Origin: Marivita geojedonensis | GTDB taxonomy: Bacteria; Pseudomonadota; Alphaproteobacteria; Rhodobacterales; Rhodobacteraceae | Length of the DNA: 64,000 nt | Direction of reading: 5' to 3' | Assembly (NCBI RefSeq): GCF_002115805.1 | Contig: NZ_JFKC01000004.1 | Coordinates: forward strand, 62,001-126,000 | Shown here: one piece after another, positions 26,954-33,029 of the stretch | Position numbering within the stretch: position 1 is the first letter of the stretch | Layout of the letters: each line of letters starts with the position of its first letter | The notes under the pieces: generated by a model | Database searches by the model: none | Seen by the model: the letters and a program-made list of their open reading frames with translations, nothing else | Told to the model about the DNA's origin: nothing | Position numbers and translations under genes: made by a program

Positions 26954-29527
26954 ATGCCAGTTGTCGTTGTCGAATCCCCGGCAAAAGCCAAAACGATCAA
27001 TAAGTATCTGGGGTCTGACTACACAGTTCTGGCGTCCTACGGGCACGTGCGCGACCTGCCGCCGAAGGACGGCTCCGTGGACACCGAGAACGGCTTCGAC
27101 ATGAAGTGGGAGGTCGCGTCGGAGTCGCGCAAGCACGTCGCCGCCATCGCCGATGCGCTCAAATCCGATGATGCGATCATTCTCGCGACCGACCCTGATC
27201 GTGAGGGCGAGGCAATTTCCTGGCATCTGAAAGAAGCCCTGACCAAGCGCCGTGCGATCAAGAAGACCACCGATGTAAAACGTGTCACGTTCAACGCCAT
27301 CACCAAGGCCGCCGTCACGGAAGCCATGGCAAACCCGCGTGACATCGACGCGCCGCTGGTCGAGGCCTATCTGGCCCGCCGGGCGCTCGACTATCTCGTG
27401 GGGTTCAATCTGTCGCCTGTGCTCTGGCGCAAACTGCCCGGAGCGCGCAGCGCAGGACGGGTGCAGTCCGTGTGCCTGAGACTCATCGTCGAACGCGAAA
27501 TGGAGATCGAGGCGTTCAAACCCCGTGAATACTGGTCGGTCAAGGCGCTGCTGTCCACGCCGCGCGGTCAGGAATACGAGGCGCGCCTGACGGTTCTCGC
27601 AGGCAGGAAACTCGACCGCTACGACATCGAGAATGAAACGCAGGCCGAACTGGCGGTGCAGGCGATCACCAGCCGCGACCTGACCGTGCAGTCCGTTGAG
27701 GCAAAACCCGGCTCCCGCAACCCGTCGGCACCGTTCATGACCTCGACGCTTCAGCAGGAGGCCAGCCGCAAGTTCGGCATGGGCGCGCGTCAGACGATGA
27801 ATGCGGCGCAGCGGCTCTACGAGGCGGGGCACATCACCTATATGCGGACCGACGGGATCGACATGGCCCCGGAAGCCGTGGAACAGGCCCGCGCGGCGAT
27901 CAAGGATCGCTACGGGGCCGACTATGTTCCAAGCCAGCCGCGCCTGTACAAGAACAAGGCAAAGAACGCTCAGGAAGCGCACGAATGTATCCGCCCTACC
28001 GACATGTCGCGGGATGCGCAGTCGCTGAAACTGTCGGAGCCGGACCAGCGCAAGCTGTATGATCTGATCTGGAAGCGCACGCTGGCCTGTCAGATGGAAT
28101 CGGCCCGGCTGGAACGCACCACCGTGGATGTCGGAAGCGCCGATGGACAGGTCGTGCTGCGCGCCACCGGTCAGGTGGTGCTGTTCGACGGCTTCCTCCG
28201 TGTCTACGAAGAAGGCCGCGATGATGCCGTGGTCGATGACGACGACAAGCGCCTGCCGCAGATCATGCAGGGCGAAAAGGCCGAAAAGCGCTCGATCACG
28301 CCGGATCAGCACTTCACCCAACCGCCGCCGCGCTACACCGAGGCGACGCTGGTCAAGAAGATGGAAGAACTGGGTATCGGGCGTCCGTCGACCTATGCCA
28401 GCATCATCACCACGATCCAGGATCGCGAATATGTCCGCAAGGAACAGAACCGCCTGATTCCCGAAGACAAGGGCCGGATCGTCACGATCTTCCTGCTCAA
28501 CTTCTTCAAGCGCTACGTGGAATACGATTTCACTGCCGCGCTCGAGGACGAGCTTGACCACGTCAGTGCCGGGGAGGCCGATTACAAAGACCTGCTGAGC
28601 CGCTTCTGGCGCGATTTCTCGGCCGCGATTGCCGAAACCTCGGACCTGCGGATCACCGAAGTGCTCGACGTTCTGGACGAAGCGCTGGCCCCGCAGCTTT
28701 ATCCGCCACGAGACGATGGCAGCGACCCGCGTGTCTGTCCGAAATGCGGGCAGGGACGTCTGCATCTGAAGACCTCGCGCACTGGTGGGTTCGTGGGATG
28801 TGGCAACTACCCCGAATGTACCTACACGCGCCCCATCGCCGGCGAGGGGGCCGAAGGCGACGAACGTGTGCTGGGCGAACACGAGGGCGAGGAAGTCTGG
28901 CTCAAGTCCGGCCGCTTCGGGCCATATGTCCAGAAAGGTGAACCGACGCCGGAAAATAAGAAACCGCCGCGCGCCAGCCTGCCCAAGGCCAAGGGCGATT
29001 TCCTGCCGGGTTGGTCGCCGGACGACATGACGCTGGAAAAGGCGGTCACGCTTCTGACCCTGCCGCGCGTTGTCGGGATGCACCCCGACGGCGGCGAGGT
29101 GAAATCCAACCTTGGCCGCTTCGGCCCCTATATCATGCACCAGCTGCCTGATGAGGCGAAGCCCGTCTACGTGAACCTCAAGGAATTCCAGGACGTCTTC
29201 GAAATCGGCATGAACCGCGCGGTCGAGTTGCTGGCCGAGAAGCGGGCAAATCCGGGCCGTGGTCGCGGGGCTGCGGCCAAGCCGCTACGGGAACTCGGTG
29301 AGCACCCACAGGATGGCGGTATGATCGCCGTGATGGAAGGGCGCTACGGTCCGTACGTCAAATGGGAAAAGGTCAACGCCACCCTGCCCAAAGACGTCGA
29401 ACCCGACGCGGTGACCATGGACATGGCAGTTGCTCTGATCGCGGAAAAAGCCGCCAAGAAAGGCAGCAAGAAAAAGGCGCCCGCGAAAAAGACCGCCGCA
29501 AAGAAGAAGACGACAAAGAAATCCTGA
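26954..29527 (+). CDS. topA: DNA topoisomerase I
   Basis: This 857-residue type IA topoisomerase relaxes negative supercoils. The TOPRIM domain starts with VVVESPAKAKTINKYLG and has DPDREGE (80-86). The active-site tyrosine is Y296 in HITYMRTDG, where the common serine after TD is glycine. One four-cysteine zinc finger (CPKCGQGR...CGNYPEC) and topoisomerase C-terminal repeats follow, and the last 25 residues are a lysine/alanine tail that should bind DNA. The ATG at 26954 begins the family N-terminus; 30 extra upstream codons do not fit the family. Confidence 0.96.
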   Translation: MPVVVVESPAKAKTINKYLGSDYTVLASYGHVRDLPPKDGSVDTENGFDMKWEVASESRKHVAAIADALKSDDAIILATDPDREGEAISWHLKEALTKRRAIKKTTDVKRVTFNAITKAAVTEAMANPRDIDAPLVEAYLARRALDYLVGFNLSPVLWRKLPGARSAGRVQSVCLRLIVEREMEIEAFKPREYWSVKALLSTPRGQEYEARLTVLAGRKLDRYDIENETQAELAVQAITSRDLTVQSVEAKPGSRNPSAPFMTSTLQQEASRKFGMGARQTMNAAQRLYEAGHITYMRTDGIDMAPEAVEQARAAIKDRYGADYVPSQPRLYKNKAKNAQEAHECIRPTDMSRDAQSLKLSEPDQRKLYDLIWKRTLACQMESARLERTTVDVGSADGQVVLRATGQVVLFDGFLRVYEEGRDDAVVDDDDKRLPQIMQGEKAEKRSITPDQHFTQPPPRYTEATLVKKMEELGIGRPSTYASIITTIQDREYVRKEQNRLIPEDKGRIVTIFLLNFFKRYVEYDFTAALEDELDHVSAGEADYKDLLSRFWRDFSAAIAETSDLRITEVLDVLDEALAPQLYPPRDDGSDPRVCPKCGQGRLHLKTSRTGGFVGCGNYPECTYTRPIAGEGAEGDERVLGEHEGEEVWLKSGRFGPYVQKGEPTPENKKPPRASLPKAKGDFLPGWSPDDMTLEKAVTLLTLPRVVGMHPDGGEVKSNLGRFGPYIMHQLPDEAKPVYVNLKEFQDVFEIGMNRAVELLAEKRANPGRGRGAAAKPLRELGEHPQDGGMIAVMEGRYGPYVKWEKVNATLPKDVEPDAVTMDMAVALIAEKAAKKGSKKKAPAKKTAAKKKTTKKS

Positions 29528-29554
29528 TCCGTCAGGCAATTACAGGCGAAAAAA

Positions 29555-29589
29555 GTGTCAACAAAACGCGACATGCGCGAAGTTGACAC
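29555..29589. terminator. Nested palindrome downstream of topA
   Basis: An outer 8-bp stem GTGTCAAC/GTTGACAC (29555-29562 with 29582-29589) encloses an inner CGCG-ACATG-CGCG hairpin (29567-29579). AAAAAA precedes it and TCCTTTTGC follows, so it can serve as a topA terminator. The second outer arm also contains a consensus TTGACA. Confidence 0.5.
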
Positions 29590-29673
29590 ATCCTTTTGCT
29601 TACCTGCCTGCCGTTGACTTACCCCCTCTGACACGCCAAAACGGCGGTGCGTTGAACAGCGGGGGATTACCGA

Positions 29674-30378
29674 ATGAAAAAGGTCTATGGATCTGCAACC
29701 GAAGCGCTCGAAGGCGTCCTGTCCGATGGTATGCTGATCGCGGCCGGGGGCTTTGGCCTGAGCGGCATTCCCGAACTGCTGCTGGCGGCGATCCGGGACA
29801 GCGGTGTGAAGGACCTGACCTTTGCCTCGAACAATGCAGGCGTCGATGATTTCGGCATCGGCATCCTGCTTCAGACCCGCCAGGTCAAAAAGATGATCAG
29901 CTCCTATGTGGGCGAAAACGCAGAATTCATGCGTCAGTACCTCTCGGGTGAACTCGAACTCGAGTTCAATCCGCAGGGCACGCTGGCCGAGCGGATGCGC
30001 GCAGGTGGCGCCGGCATCCCTGGGTTCTACACAAAGACCGGCGTCGGCACCGTGATCGCGGAAGGCAAGGATCACCGCGACTTCAACGGCCAGACCTACA
30101 TCATGGAAGAGGGCATCTTCGCCGATCTGTCCATCGTCAAGGCATGGAAGGCCGATACGACCGGCAACGCCATTTTCCGCAAGACAGCCCGCAACTTCAA
30201 TCCGCCGGCGGCGATGTGCGGCAAGATCTGCATCATGGAAGTCGAGGAAATCGTCGAACCGGGTGAACTGGATCCCGATCACATTCACCTGCCGGGCATC
30301 TACGTGCACCGGATCATTCAGGGTGAGCACGAAAAGCGCATCGAACAGCGCACCACCCGCCCGCGCCCAGCGGCCTGA
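29674..30378 (+). CDS. scoA: Succinyl-CoA:3-ketoacid CoA-transferase subunit A
   Basis: This 234-residue alpha subunit moves CoA from succinyl-CoA to acetoacetate or similar 3-oxo acids, feeding ketone bodies and polyhydroxybutyrate breakdown into the TCA cycle. Signatures are IAAGGFGLSGIPE (CoA-binding loop), LTFASNNAGVDDFGIG and FNPQGTLAERMRAGGAGIPGF. GGGGGATTAC precedes the ATG. The B subunit gene follows, but only after a LOV sensor gene of 1071 bp that splits the usual A-B pair. Confidence 0.93.
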   Translation: MKKVYGSATEALEGVLSDGMLIAAGGFGLSGIPELLLAAIRDSGVKDLTFASNNAGVDDFGIGILLQTRQVKKMISSYVGENAEFMRQYLSGELELEFNPQGTLAERMRAGGAGIPGFYTKTGVGTVIAEGKDHRDFNGQTYIMEEGIFADLSIVKAWKADTTGNAIFRKTARNFNPPAAMCGKICIMEVEEIVEPGELDPDHIHLPGIYVHRIIQGEHEKRIEQRTTRPRPAA

Positions 30379-30402
30379 GTCAGGACAGCAACCGAAAACG
30401 CC

Positions 30403-31473
30403 GTGGAACGATTTGTTGAGAAACCAAAACTGACATCCGTTCTGGACGACAGCCAGGCGCTTGCCGGGTTTTCCCGTCTGAGCGTTGCCATGGTGATCAC
30501 CAATCCGAATTCCGACGACAATCCGATCGTCTACATCAACGACGCATTCGAACGGATCACCGGTTACCAGCGCTCAACTGTGATCGGGCGCAACTGCCGG
30601 TTCCTTCAGGGGCCAGAGACCGATCAGGAGTCGGTGCGCCAGATCCGGTCCGCCATCGAGGCCGGAGAGGATGTCACCGTCGATATCGTCAACTATCGCT
30701 CCACCGGTGAATCCTTCATGAACCGTCTGCTGATCGCACCGATCAATGGCGTCAATGGCAAACCGGTTTACTTCCTCGGAATTCAGAAAGAACTGCGCGA
30801 CGAGGAACTGGATCGGTCTCACGATGAAACACGCCTGCATCTCGACACGGTCTGTTCGCGCGTCAGCAAGGATCTCGGACTGATCGTCAGTTCGTTGGTG
30901 GATCGCGGCGAGGATGCAACGCCTGTCAACGAGGAAGACCGCCGCAAGCAGCTGCGGATGCTCGACGTGCTCCCGCGCCGTCTGGAATGTCTGCAATTCG
31001 TGTATGAAGAGATGAAACTCGCGGACGAACAGTGGAACCGCGATGGCGTCGACCTTGGCTCGCTCCTGTCACGCATCTCGCACACGATTGCGCATAACGA
31101 AGGGCGTCCCGGCGTGCGTTTCGTGTCGCTGGTTGAACCGCTCGAAGTGAATCTTGAAACCGCGATCCGCGTGGCGCTGATCACGTTCGAGCTTGTGTCC
31201 AACGCGTTTCAGCATGCGTTCGATGGGCTGGATCAGGGCTATCTGGAGCTGCGGGTGAACAGGCTGGCTGCGGGCGGATTGCGCATGACAATCGCCGATG
31301 ACGGCGTCGGGATCCCGGCAAAGAAAGCCTTTCCACCGCCGGATTCGGTTGGCGGCCGGTTGGTCTCCGCCCTGCTCGAAGGGCTCGACGCAACCATAAA
31401 TGTGGCGCGGGGCGCCGCCGGGACGGTCGTCATGATTGATGTGCCGGTCGGATTTACCGATTACAGGGAATAA
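30403..31473 (+). CDS. LOV-domain blue-light sensor with HATPase domain, histidine-kinase-like without clear phosphoacceptor
   Basis: This 356-residue protein starts with GTG, 24 bp after scoA. Residues about 25-130 form a LOV domain with all the key FMN residues: GRNCRFLQG with photoactive Cys65, the [13 protein letters not shown] asparagines and the IQKEL glutamine (Q128). Residues about 140-225 resemble the HisKA_2 dimerisation region ([18 protein letters not shown]). Where HisKA_2 kinases have H-R-V-K-N-N-L, this protein reads CSRVSKDLG, so the phosphoacceptor histidine is replaced. Residues 250-350 are an HATPase_c domain with N-box [11 protein letters not shown] (N267), G1 box ADDGVGIP and a [12 protein letters not shown] lid. 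No response regulator is adjacent. The protein could be a light-controlled ATP-binding switch or a kinase using another residue. Confidence 0.85.
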
Positions 31474-31517
31474 CGCCGCACATTGCGGATCAGAGGATAA
31501 ACGAGGGGAACACGAAC

Positions 31518-32144
31518 ATGGGTTGGGATCGCAATCAGATGGCCGAACGGGCGGCAAAAGAGCTTGAGGACGGCATGTATGTGAACCTCGGCATCGGTAT
31601 CCCGACGCTGGTGTCGAACTACATCCCCGAAGGCATGACCGTGACCCTGCAATCCGAGAACGGGATGCTCGGCATGGGGCCGTTTCCCTATGAGGGCGAT
31701 GAAGACCCTGACCTGATCAACGCCGGCAAGCAGACGATCACCGAACTGCCACACACCTCATACTTCGACAGCGCCACGAGCTTTGGCATGATCCGCGGCG
31801 GGAAGATTGCGATGGCGATCCTCGGTGCCATGGAAGTCGATGAAAAAGGCGATCTGGCAAACTGGATGATCCCCGGCAAGCTGGTCAAGGGCATGGGCGG
31901 CGCGATGGATCTCGTTGCGGGCGTCGGTCGTGTGGTTGTGGTCATGGACCACACCAACAAGCACGGCGAATCCAAGGTTCTCAAGGAATGTACGCTGCCG
32001 CTCACCGGTGCCGGTGTTGTGGACCGGATCATCACCAACCTCGGTGTGCTCGACGTGACCCACAAGGGACTGCACATCCAGGAACTCGCCCCCGGCGTCA
32101 CCCGCGAAGAGATGATCGCGGCGACCGAGGCGACGATTGTCTGA
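31518..32144 (+). CDS. scoB: Succinyl-CoA:3-ketoacid CoA-transferase subunit B
   Basis: This 208-residue beta subunit carries the catalytic glutamate in [12 protein letters not shown], which forms the covalent CoA thioester. Other signatures are [31 protein letters not shown] and [22 protein letters not shown] lies upstream of the ATG. It pairs with subunit A encoded 1.1 kb upstream. Confidence 0.94.
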
Positions 32145-32427
32145 CCCCGAGATCGTTCGCGAACAGCAGGGTGCGAAAGGCCGCTATGTGCTCCGCCTGG
32201 GCGATGCCGAGGCGGAGCTGACCTATTCAGTGGCGTCCCCGACGCTCGTGATCGCGGATCACACCGGTGTGCCGGATGCTCTGCGGGGTACCGGCGCTGG
32301 CCTGAGACTGGTCCAGAGGCTGATTGCGGATGCCCGGGCCGAAGGCTTCAGGATCGTTCCGCTGTGCCCGTTCGTAAACGCGCAGCGCCGCAAACACCCC
32401 GAATGGTCGGACGCATTCAACGTCTAG
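32137..32427 (+). CDS. Small GNAT-type N-acetyltransferase
   Basis: This 96-residue protein of the short YjdJ/GCN5-related group has [22 protein letters not shown] (acetyl-CoA loop) and [18 protein letters not shown] at the end, both typical of this minimal family. It starts with TTG and overlaps scoB by 8 bp, so it is cotranslated. The substrate is unknown. Confidence 0.82.
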
Positions 32428-32486
32428 GGCGTGCGCGGAGCGTCAACGCATCACGCCGCGTCCTTCCGACGGTAACGGCCCTGTCC

Positions 32487-33029
32487 CTAAAGCCCTTCGA
32501 ACGCGCACAGCGCGTGCACGTCCATACCCATAGCTTCGAGTTTCTTGCGGCCACCCAGATCGGGAAGGTCGATGATGAACGCACAGCCGATCACCTCACC
32601 GCCAAGCCGCTCGATCAGTTTCAGCCCGGCTTCTGCCGTGCCGCCCGTGGCAAGAAGGTCATCGACCAGAAGGATCTTTTCACCCGGCTGGATCGCATCA
32701 TCGTGGATCTCCACGATCGCCTCGCCATATTCCAGCGTATATTCCTCGGAAATCACGGCACCCGGCAGTTTGCCTTTCTTGCGCACCGGAACAAACCCGA
32801 CTGACAGCTGATGCGCAATTGCGCCGCCAAGGATGAACCCGCGCGCTTCAAGCCCAACCACCTTGTCGAACCGCTCACCGGCATACGGGTGGAGCAACTG
32901 GTCGATGGCCATGCGGAACCCTCGCGCGTCGGCGAAGAGCGTTGTCACATCGCGGAACATGATCCCTTCGTGCGGGAAGTCTACGATGGTGCGGATGTAG
33001 TCTTTGACGGTCTTGGTGGTTTTGCTCAT
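32487..33029 (-). CDS. apt: Adenine phosphoribosyltransferase
   Basis: This 180-residue purine-salvage enzyme makes AMP from adenine and PRPP. The PRPP motif is [16 protein letters not shown], and the [25 protein letters not shown] segment is characteristic. It is convergent with the GNAT gene and begins a minus-strand run with the LysE-type exporter and mtnP upstream, so salvage of the adenine released by MtnP is a natural link. Confidence 0.96.

Follow-up and report, generated by a model that had tools for sequence, protein, structure and literature searches.

An LdaP ortholog encoded between scoA and scoB of Marivita geojedonensis is a probable blue-light antirepressor of PpsR

We analyzed a gene for a LOV-domain protein that lies between scoA and scoB, the genes for the two subunits of a 3-oxoacid CoA-transferase, in a 64,000-nucleotide stretch of Marivita geojedonensis DNA (the window). 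The gene is an ortholog of ldaP of Dinoroseobacter shibae, and it is very probable that its product, like LdaP, acts as a blue-light-dependent antirepressor of PpsR by direct contact, with scoA and scoB serving as the host operon and not as the target. The original prediction had put the LOV switch forward as an undescribed system; it is instead a new member of the LdaP kind, which was published in 2024 (PMC10890935). What is new here is the conserved sco location, the single origin, the co-loss with the photosynthesis cluster, and the strong constraint on the ATP pocket. On this reading, the blue-light switch first described in a single strain would be old and widespread in Rhodobacteraceae as a regulator of aerobic anoxygenic photosynthesis; it would have arisen once from a light-driven kinase, and its location between scoA and scoB would serve to identify it.

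The features of the locus are listed below; residue numbers refer to the LOV protein, and H+4 and H+5 denote positions counted from the phosphoacceptor-histidine column (H).

29674–30378, plus strand: scoA, 3-oxoacid CoA-transferase subunit A; neighbour of the LOV gene and host of the slot
30403–31473, plus strand: ldaP ortholog, LOV sensor with a degenerate HisKA_2/HATPase part, 356 aa, GTG start
30475–30801, plus strand: LOV domain, about residues 25–133 (PAS match 28–131, predicted fold)
30595–30597, plus strand: codon TGC of Cys65, the flavin-adduct cysteine, counterpart of Cys61 in Dshi_1135
30823–31029, plus strand: DHp-like helices, residues 141–209 (predicted helices 141–166 and 177–209)
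30856–30858, plus strand: codon TCG of Ser152, phosphoacceptor-histidine column (Arg148 in Dshi_1135)
30871–30873, plus strand: Asp157 (H+5)
31054–31443, plus strand: HATPase (CA) domain, with N-box Asn267 and G-boxes Asp299–Gly303 and Gly317–Gly318
31518–32144, plus strand: scoB, 3-oxoacid CoA-transferase subunit B; neighbour of the LOV gene
32137–32427, plus strand: small GNAT-family acetyltransferase gene, with an 8 bp overlap with the end of scoB

The four genes run in one direction, with gaps of 24 bp between scoA and the LOV gene and 44 bp between the LOV gene and scoB, and the coordinates, strand, and gaps of the scoA-LOV-scoB arrangement were the same as in the original prediction. ScoA matched TIGR02429 with 234.6 bits and ScoB matched TIGR02428 with 333.8 bits, both above the curated cut-offs. 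A simple scan of 29500–32500 gave one sigma-70-like promoter site, located within scoB (31765–31792), where 0.7 were expected; the terminator-like sites found by a simple scan of the same interval were on the minus strand only and equal in number to chance.

The LOV gene product matched PAS and HATPase families. Its closest known structure by sequence was EL346 of Erythrobacter litoralis, a LOV histidine kinase (4r3a; residues 22–350, E = 1.2e-65), and a Foldseek search with the predicted fold returned 4r3a_A first (E = 7.7e-32, TM 0.69/0.76). According to the AlphaFold2 model (mean pLDDT 81.1, with weaker values of 63–80 in the H-box helix block), the predicted fold is LOV-DHp-CA. In the alignment, the box HRVKNHL of EL346 was placed against SRVSKDL of the window protein, so the phosphoacceptor column corresponds to Ser152; Lys156 occupies the H+4 Asn column and Asp157 the H+5 column. 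EL346 and the other HisKA_2 LOV histidine kinases have the same domains and fold as the window protein and the same N- and G-boxes of the ATP site, which are retained in the window protein; unlike EL346, an active kinase with HRVKNHL, the window protein has replaced the histidine, the H+4 Asn, and the H+5 His. The alignment thus agrees with the earlier claim that the phosphoacceptor histidine is gone while the N- and G-boxes are kept. The full LOV photoactive set that had been claimed (Cys65, Asn97, Asn107, and Gln128) is also present.

LdaP (Dshi_1135 of D. shibae, 338 aa) has been described as a blue-light antirepressor of PpsR (PMC10890935). According to that report, it carries GRNCRFLQ at residues 58–65, its photocycle requires Cys61, Arg148 replaces the histidine, and autophosphorylation was absent by both 32P and Phos-tag. 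LdaP was found to contact PpsR; in E. coli, it lifted the repression of bchF-lacZ by PpsR, but only in darkness (PMC10890935). Two points of that work count against the favoured explanation of the window gene: the two-hybrid assay was positive for just one fusion pair, and the raw counts of PpsR peptides in the LdaP pull-down were no higher in the dark (seven in white light, seven in blue light, and one in the dark), the authors' argument relying on the amounts of bait and on a blot (PMC10890935). The protein had earlier been listed as a LOV protein carrying a kinase domain (PMC4335406), and LdaP has later been cited for D. shibae (PMC12654162, PMC11406998).

Among the loci that we compared, L070 (genome G035) encodes a protein of 338 aa with GRNCRFLQ at 58–65 and Arg148, and it was the only match among the loci searched with the primers of PMC10890935. 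We therefore identify L070 with Dshi_1135 from its length, residue numbers, and the published primers. The window protein is 51% identical to Dshi_1135 over 345 aa, L070 has the same scoA-LOV-scoB order as the window, and the two proteins fall on the same side of the branch with support 86 in the tree described below. They are alike in the LOV/DHp/CA architecture, the lost histidine, the scoA-LOV-scoB locus, and the presence of ppaA-ppsR and a photosynthesis cluster in the genome. They differ in the H column, where the window protein has Ser and Dshi_1135 has Arg, and in that a function has been assigned directly to Dshi_1135 and would apply to the window protein by analogy. Partner binding, one of the modes of action suggested at the outset, has been demonstrated for the D. 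shibae ortholog (PMC10890935). Our searches of the open-licence PMC literature turned up no report of the sco location or of LdaP relatives in other genera; since the main text of PMC10890935 contains no word beginning with ‘transferase’ or ‘neighbor’, the sco location is seemingly not discussed there.

Relatives were taken from 60 loci of a genome contig collection and from a sample of the same family with one genome for each genus (the genus sample, 295 genomes), in which 39 had a match at 1e-20. The alignment contained 75 rows including EL346; 16 loci below 160 bits and L063 were left out. The histidine was absent in 56 rows (H-less rows) and present in 19. There are 54 distinct proteins among the H-less rows; two genomes entered twice, one as L030 and L071 and the other as L033 and L072. 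In these rows the H column contained N (22), S (20), D (5), A (4), and E (2), as well as T, G, and R, the H+4 Asn was lost without exception, and H+5 was Asp in 55, L075 having His. In all 19 His-bearing rows, both the H+4 Asn and the H+5 His were kept. The LOV photoactive residues were identical in all 56 H-less rows, and both the N-box Asn and the complete set of N- and G-boxes were intact in 55 of them, the exception for the N-box Asn being L081. In L081 (genome G230), the H-less LOV gene is in the sco slot and the LOV residues, PufLM, and PpsR are kept. The loss of the histidine in the window is thus not a lone mutation, as none of the 56 rows of the clade has the histidine.

In a tree built by a quick method with the H-box columns masked (61 of the 75 rows after 14 near-copies were dropped; 22 of the 58 inner branches open, several deep ones among them), all H-less rows (42 of the 61) were on one side of one branch with support 86, beside and among sco-flanked rows that still carry the histidine. 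The outgroup did not form one side of a branch in this tree, and L075, L081, L088, and L091 had long branches. The position of the H-less rows on one side of one branch, near the sco-flanked His-bearing rows, is most simply explained by a single loss of the histidine, at a time when the gene was already in the sco slot; the H-less proteins would then be a clade of many genera with a LOV kinase at that site as its ancestor. The LOV gene was flanked by scoA and scoB on either side in 51 of the 56 H-less rows and in eight of the 18 His-bearing loci. This flanking is beyond chance, and the synteny is conserved as had been suspected.

The distribution of the H-less clade follows photosynthesis and not ketone bodies. 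In the genus sample, PufLM (PF00124) was found in 122 of the 295 genomes, in all 13 genomes with an H-less protein, and in seven of the 17 with a His-bearing full-length LOV kinase. The Fisher test gave 6e-4 for H-less versus His-bearing genomes and 7e-6 for H-less genomes versus the rest, values that overstate independence since the H-less genomes are one clade. Among the genomes of the named loci, PF00124 was found in 41 of the 43 searched, including 40 of the 41 H-less ones; L018 and L019 are outside these 43 genomes, and a few genomes belong to both sets (for example, G251 is G322). The sole H-less genome of the 41 without a PF00124 match was G302 (L011). An 8-kb stretch of cluster flank, which matches in the three other genomes tried, had no match in this assembly, and since the cluster flank is lacking as well, G302 was counted as silent, not as support, and dropped as a candidate for an H-less gene without photosynthesis genes. 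PpsR exceeded the cut-off in 37 of the 48 genomes tried, including 27 of the 29 H-less ones, the two without a match being G302 and the 77%-complete G264. Two genomes, G258 (listed as 99% complete) and G159 (fragmented, 89% complete), had PpsR above the cut-off and no PF00124 match. Counting against the favoured explanation, most puf-positive genomes (at least 102 of 122) had no full-length LOV histidine kinase match. The M. geojedonensis genome itself contains PufLM on contig C4 and PpsR on C17, with a gene for a B12-binding PpaA-like protein 3 bp before PpsR; the photosynthesis cluster is split over these two contigs (L139 on C17 and L140 on C4).

A natural deletion was found in G337, a Marivita-like MAG with a ScoA 97% identical to that of the window. 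At its locus L063, scoA and scoB are intact and the LOV gene is a 43-codon in-frame remnant. Profile searches of G337 gave no PF00124 match, no PpsR match, and no BchL above the cut-off. Contig C66 of G337 is collinear with C1 of G301 through both flanks of the photosynthesis cluster (L142–L143 compared with L144–L148), and about 44 kb are absent from it, corresponding to 42.8–64.2 and 66.5–89.3 kb of G301, with a 2.3-kb piece containing idi retained in between. PpaA, PpsR, PufL, PufM, five further cluster genes, and dxs matched in this part of G301 but had no match in the corresponding stretch of G337. The collinear flanks, the missing cluster, and the remnant of the LOV gene indicate that the cluster and the LOV gene were both lost while scoA and scoB stayed. 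This informative co-loss of ldaP and the photosynthesis cluster is a single event.

The converse separation was also observed. Five of the 56 H-less rows, in two groups on the tree, keep the LOV gene without scoA/scoB flanks: in L043, L044, L046, and L074, the LOV gene follows topA and neither scoA nor scoB adjoins it, and in L040 the LOV gene is followed by the GNAT gene and scoB is absent. PF00124 was present in all five genomes. Elsewhere in the genome, scoA was found in three of the four genomes checked among those without sco flanks, G329 being the one without it. The LOV gene and scoA/scoB are thus separable in both directions.

We also examined the scoA-scoB gap in other genomes by pairing 100 listed scoA matches with listed scoB matches, which gave pairs in 96 genomes. 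Among the matches listed, the gap was below 60 nt in 64 genomes, 60–240 nt in three, 247–516 nt in ten, 931–1145 nt in 11, and 1861–3311 nt in eight; ten of the 11 gaps of 931–1145 nt contained LOV genes, the exception being G253. The other inserts examined (14 loci, L125–L138) included DUF1801, YCII-like (just under the cut-off), glycosyltransferase-like, and glycosyl hydrolase family 9 genes; two genes, for products of about 360 and 260 aa, that recur as a pair; and small ORFs, about 77 aa long, that had no Pfam match. By eye, the recurrent pair appeared GSCFA-like. Insertions between scoA and scoB recur in the family, and the slot takes genes easily. Since the slot hosts unrelated genes in other genomes, the sco neighbours of the LOV gene say little about its function, and scoA and scoB are probably just its neighbours. 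An insertion between two enzyme subunits need not imply a functional tie.

These findings bear on the proposal that the LOV protein binds or tunes ScoAB and so ties ketone-body or PHB metabolism to light; a tie of this metabolism to light had been tentatively suggested by the original prediction. The flanking frequencies given above speak for it, as does the fact that the gene order is kept at 37–45% LOV identity (80–86% for ScoA and ScoB). However, scoA and scoB persist in L063 with most of the LOV gene gone, the LOV gene persists in five rows without scoA and scoB, unrelated genes fill the slot in other genomes, and scoB occurs in 265 of the 295 genus-sample genomes whereas the LOV gene occurs in few. 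A further scoA-scoB pair in the M. geojedonensis genome (C12, 79048–80372; 81% and 83% identical), whose two genes are 8 bp apart, lacks a LOV gene, and ScoA and ScoB are missing from the proteins enriched in the co-purification table of the ortholog (PMC10890935). Thus, since the gene follows the photosynthesis genes and is separable from scoA and scoB both ways, a light-controlled CoA-transferase is very improbable.

It is even less probable that the protein is an active kinase that uses a different phosphoacceptor (Ser152, Cys151, H140, or H146), although 55 of the 56 rows retain intact N- and G-boxes, the ATP domain is under strong constraint in Marivita, and H146 is found in 13 of 13 Marivita proteins. 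The H column varies among eight residues across the clade, the catalytic H+4 Asn is gone from every H-less row, H140 occurs in one of the 13 Marivita proteins and H146 in 16 of the 56 rows, and no response regulator was found among the four genes scanned. The ortholog, moreover, did not autophosphorylate in either of the two published assays (PMC10890935), and the unusual phosphoacceptor suggested at first finds no counterpart in these data. The possibility that the gene is decaying and on its way out would fit the lost catalytic histidine, the additional loss of the ATP-site Asn in L081, and the deleted gene of L063. Decay is contradicted by whole-gene dN/dS values of 0.08–0.12 in nine Marivita comparisons (with dS of about 1.2, near saturation), and the photoactive residues and the H+5 Asp are preserved throughout the clade except for the single His of L075; we regard it as extremely unlikely. 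In summary, the original reading held for the histidine loss, the synteny, and, through the D. shibae ortholog, partner binding, and was not supported for the ketone-body link, the unusual phosphoacceptor, and the undescribed status.

The preferred reading is thus that of an LdaP-type antirepressor. In the dark, the LdaP-type protein would bind the repressor PpsR, freeing the promoters of the photosynthesis genes; in blue light, a Cys65-flavin adduct would alter the protein so that PpsR is released, and the freed PpsR would shut down the photosynthesis cluster. The protein would be a former LOV histidine kinase that, without its phosphoacceptor, signals by contact and not by phosphotransfer, and scoA and scoB would be a host operon that gives the LOV gene its transcription and is not its target. 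PpsR binding by the window protein itself is inferred from D. shibae. AppA and PpaA/AerR are likewise described as light- or B12-dependent antirepressors of PpsR/CrtJ (PMC10890935); unlike LdaP, they are BLUF or cobalamin sensors, and they are unrelated proteins.

The conservation of the ATP pocket in a protein of this kind raises the question, now directly testable, of why a kinase-dead protein keeps it. In the nine Marivita comparisons (dS near saturation), dN/dS was 0.03–0.07 for the ATP domain, 0.05–0.17 for the LOV domain, and 0.16–0.31 for the DHp part, for which one comparison was undefined. NifL has a flavin-PAS sensor and a kinase-like ATP domain, controls NifA by contact, and responds to ADP. 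By analogy with NifL, we tentatively consider it possible, if rather doubtful, that LdaP proteins are two-input switches that sense blue light together with nucleotide state through an ATP pocket dead for phosphotransfer; the photosynthesis genes would then answer to light and energy charge together. This idea is favoured by the ATP pocket being the most constrained part in Marivita, by the N-box Asn being retained in all but one H-less row, and by a conversion from kinase to contact switch that occurred once, with H+5 fixed as Asp. An absolute need for the pocket is opposed by L081, which is without the ATP-site Asn, yet retains sco, PufLM, and PpsR. The likeness to NifL is one of outline, a PAS sensor and a kinase-like ATP domain controlling a transcription regulator by contact; the input of NifL is redox/ADP and not blue light, and its partner is another protein. 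TIGR02938 (NifL) matched the PAS part with 54.6 bits against a cut-off of 242, so the window protein is not a member of that family, and the NifL-NifA structure 9qq6 was far down the Foldseek list.

Some minor observations were made at the locus. The possibility that PpsR itself controls the sco operon was rejected because its motif, TGT-N12-ACA, was found in only four of 66 regions upstream of scoA, where 1.4 were expected, a lack of conservation that also speaks against the favoured reading; the window has one such motif 5' of scoA. A TTGACA hexamer lies at about 29583, approximately 90 bp 5' of scoA; most Marivita loci share it, and the copy in the window additionally forms one half of the inverted repeat GTGTCAAC/GTTGACAC. 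A GNAT homolog was present in 24 of the 51 H-less sco-flanked loci and was also located 3' of the LOV gene in L040, L043, and L046, where scoB is missing. The M. geojedonensis genome has a second LOV gene (L121, 4992–5366, on C42), whose 125-aa product is a short LOV protein lacking an output domain.
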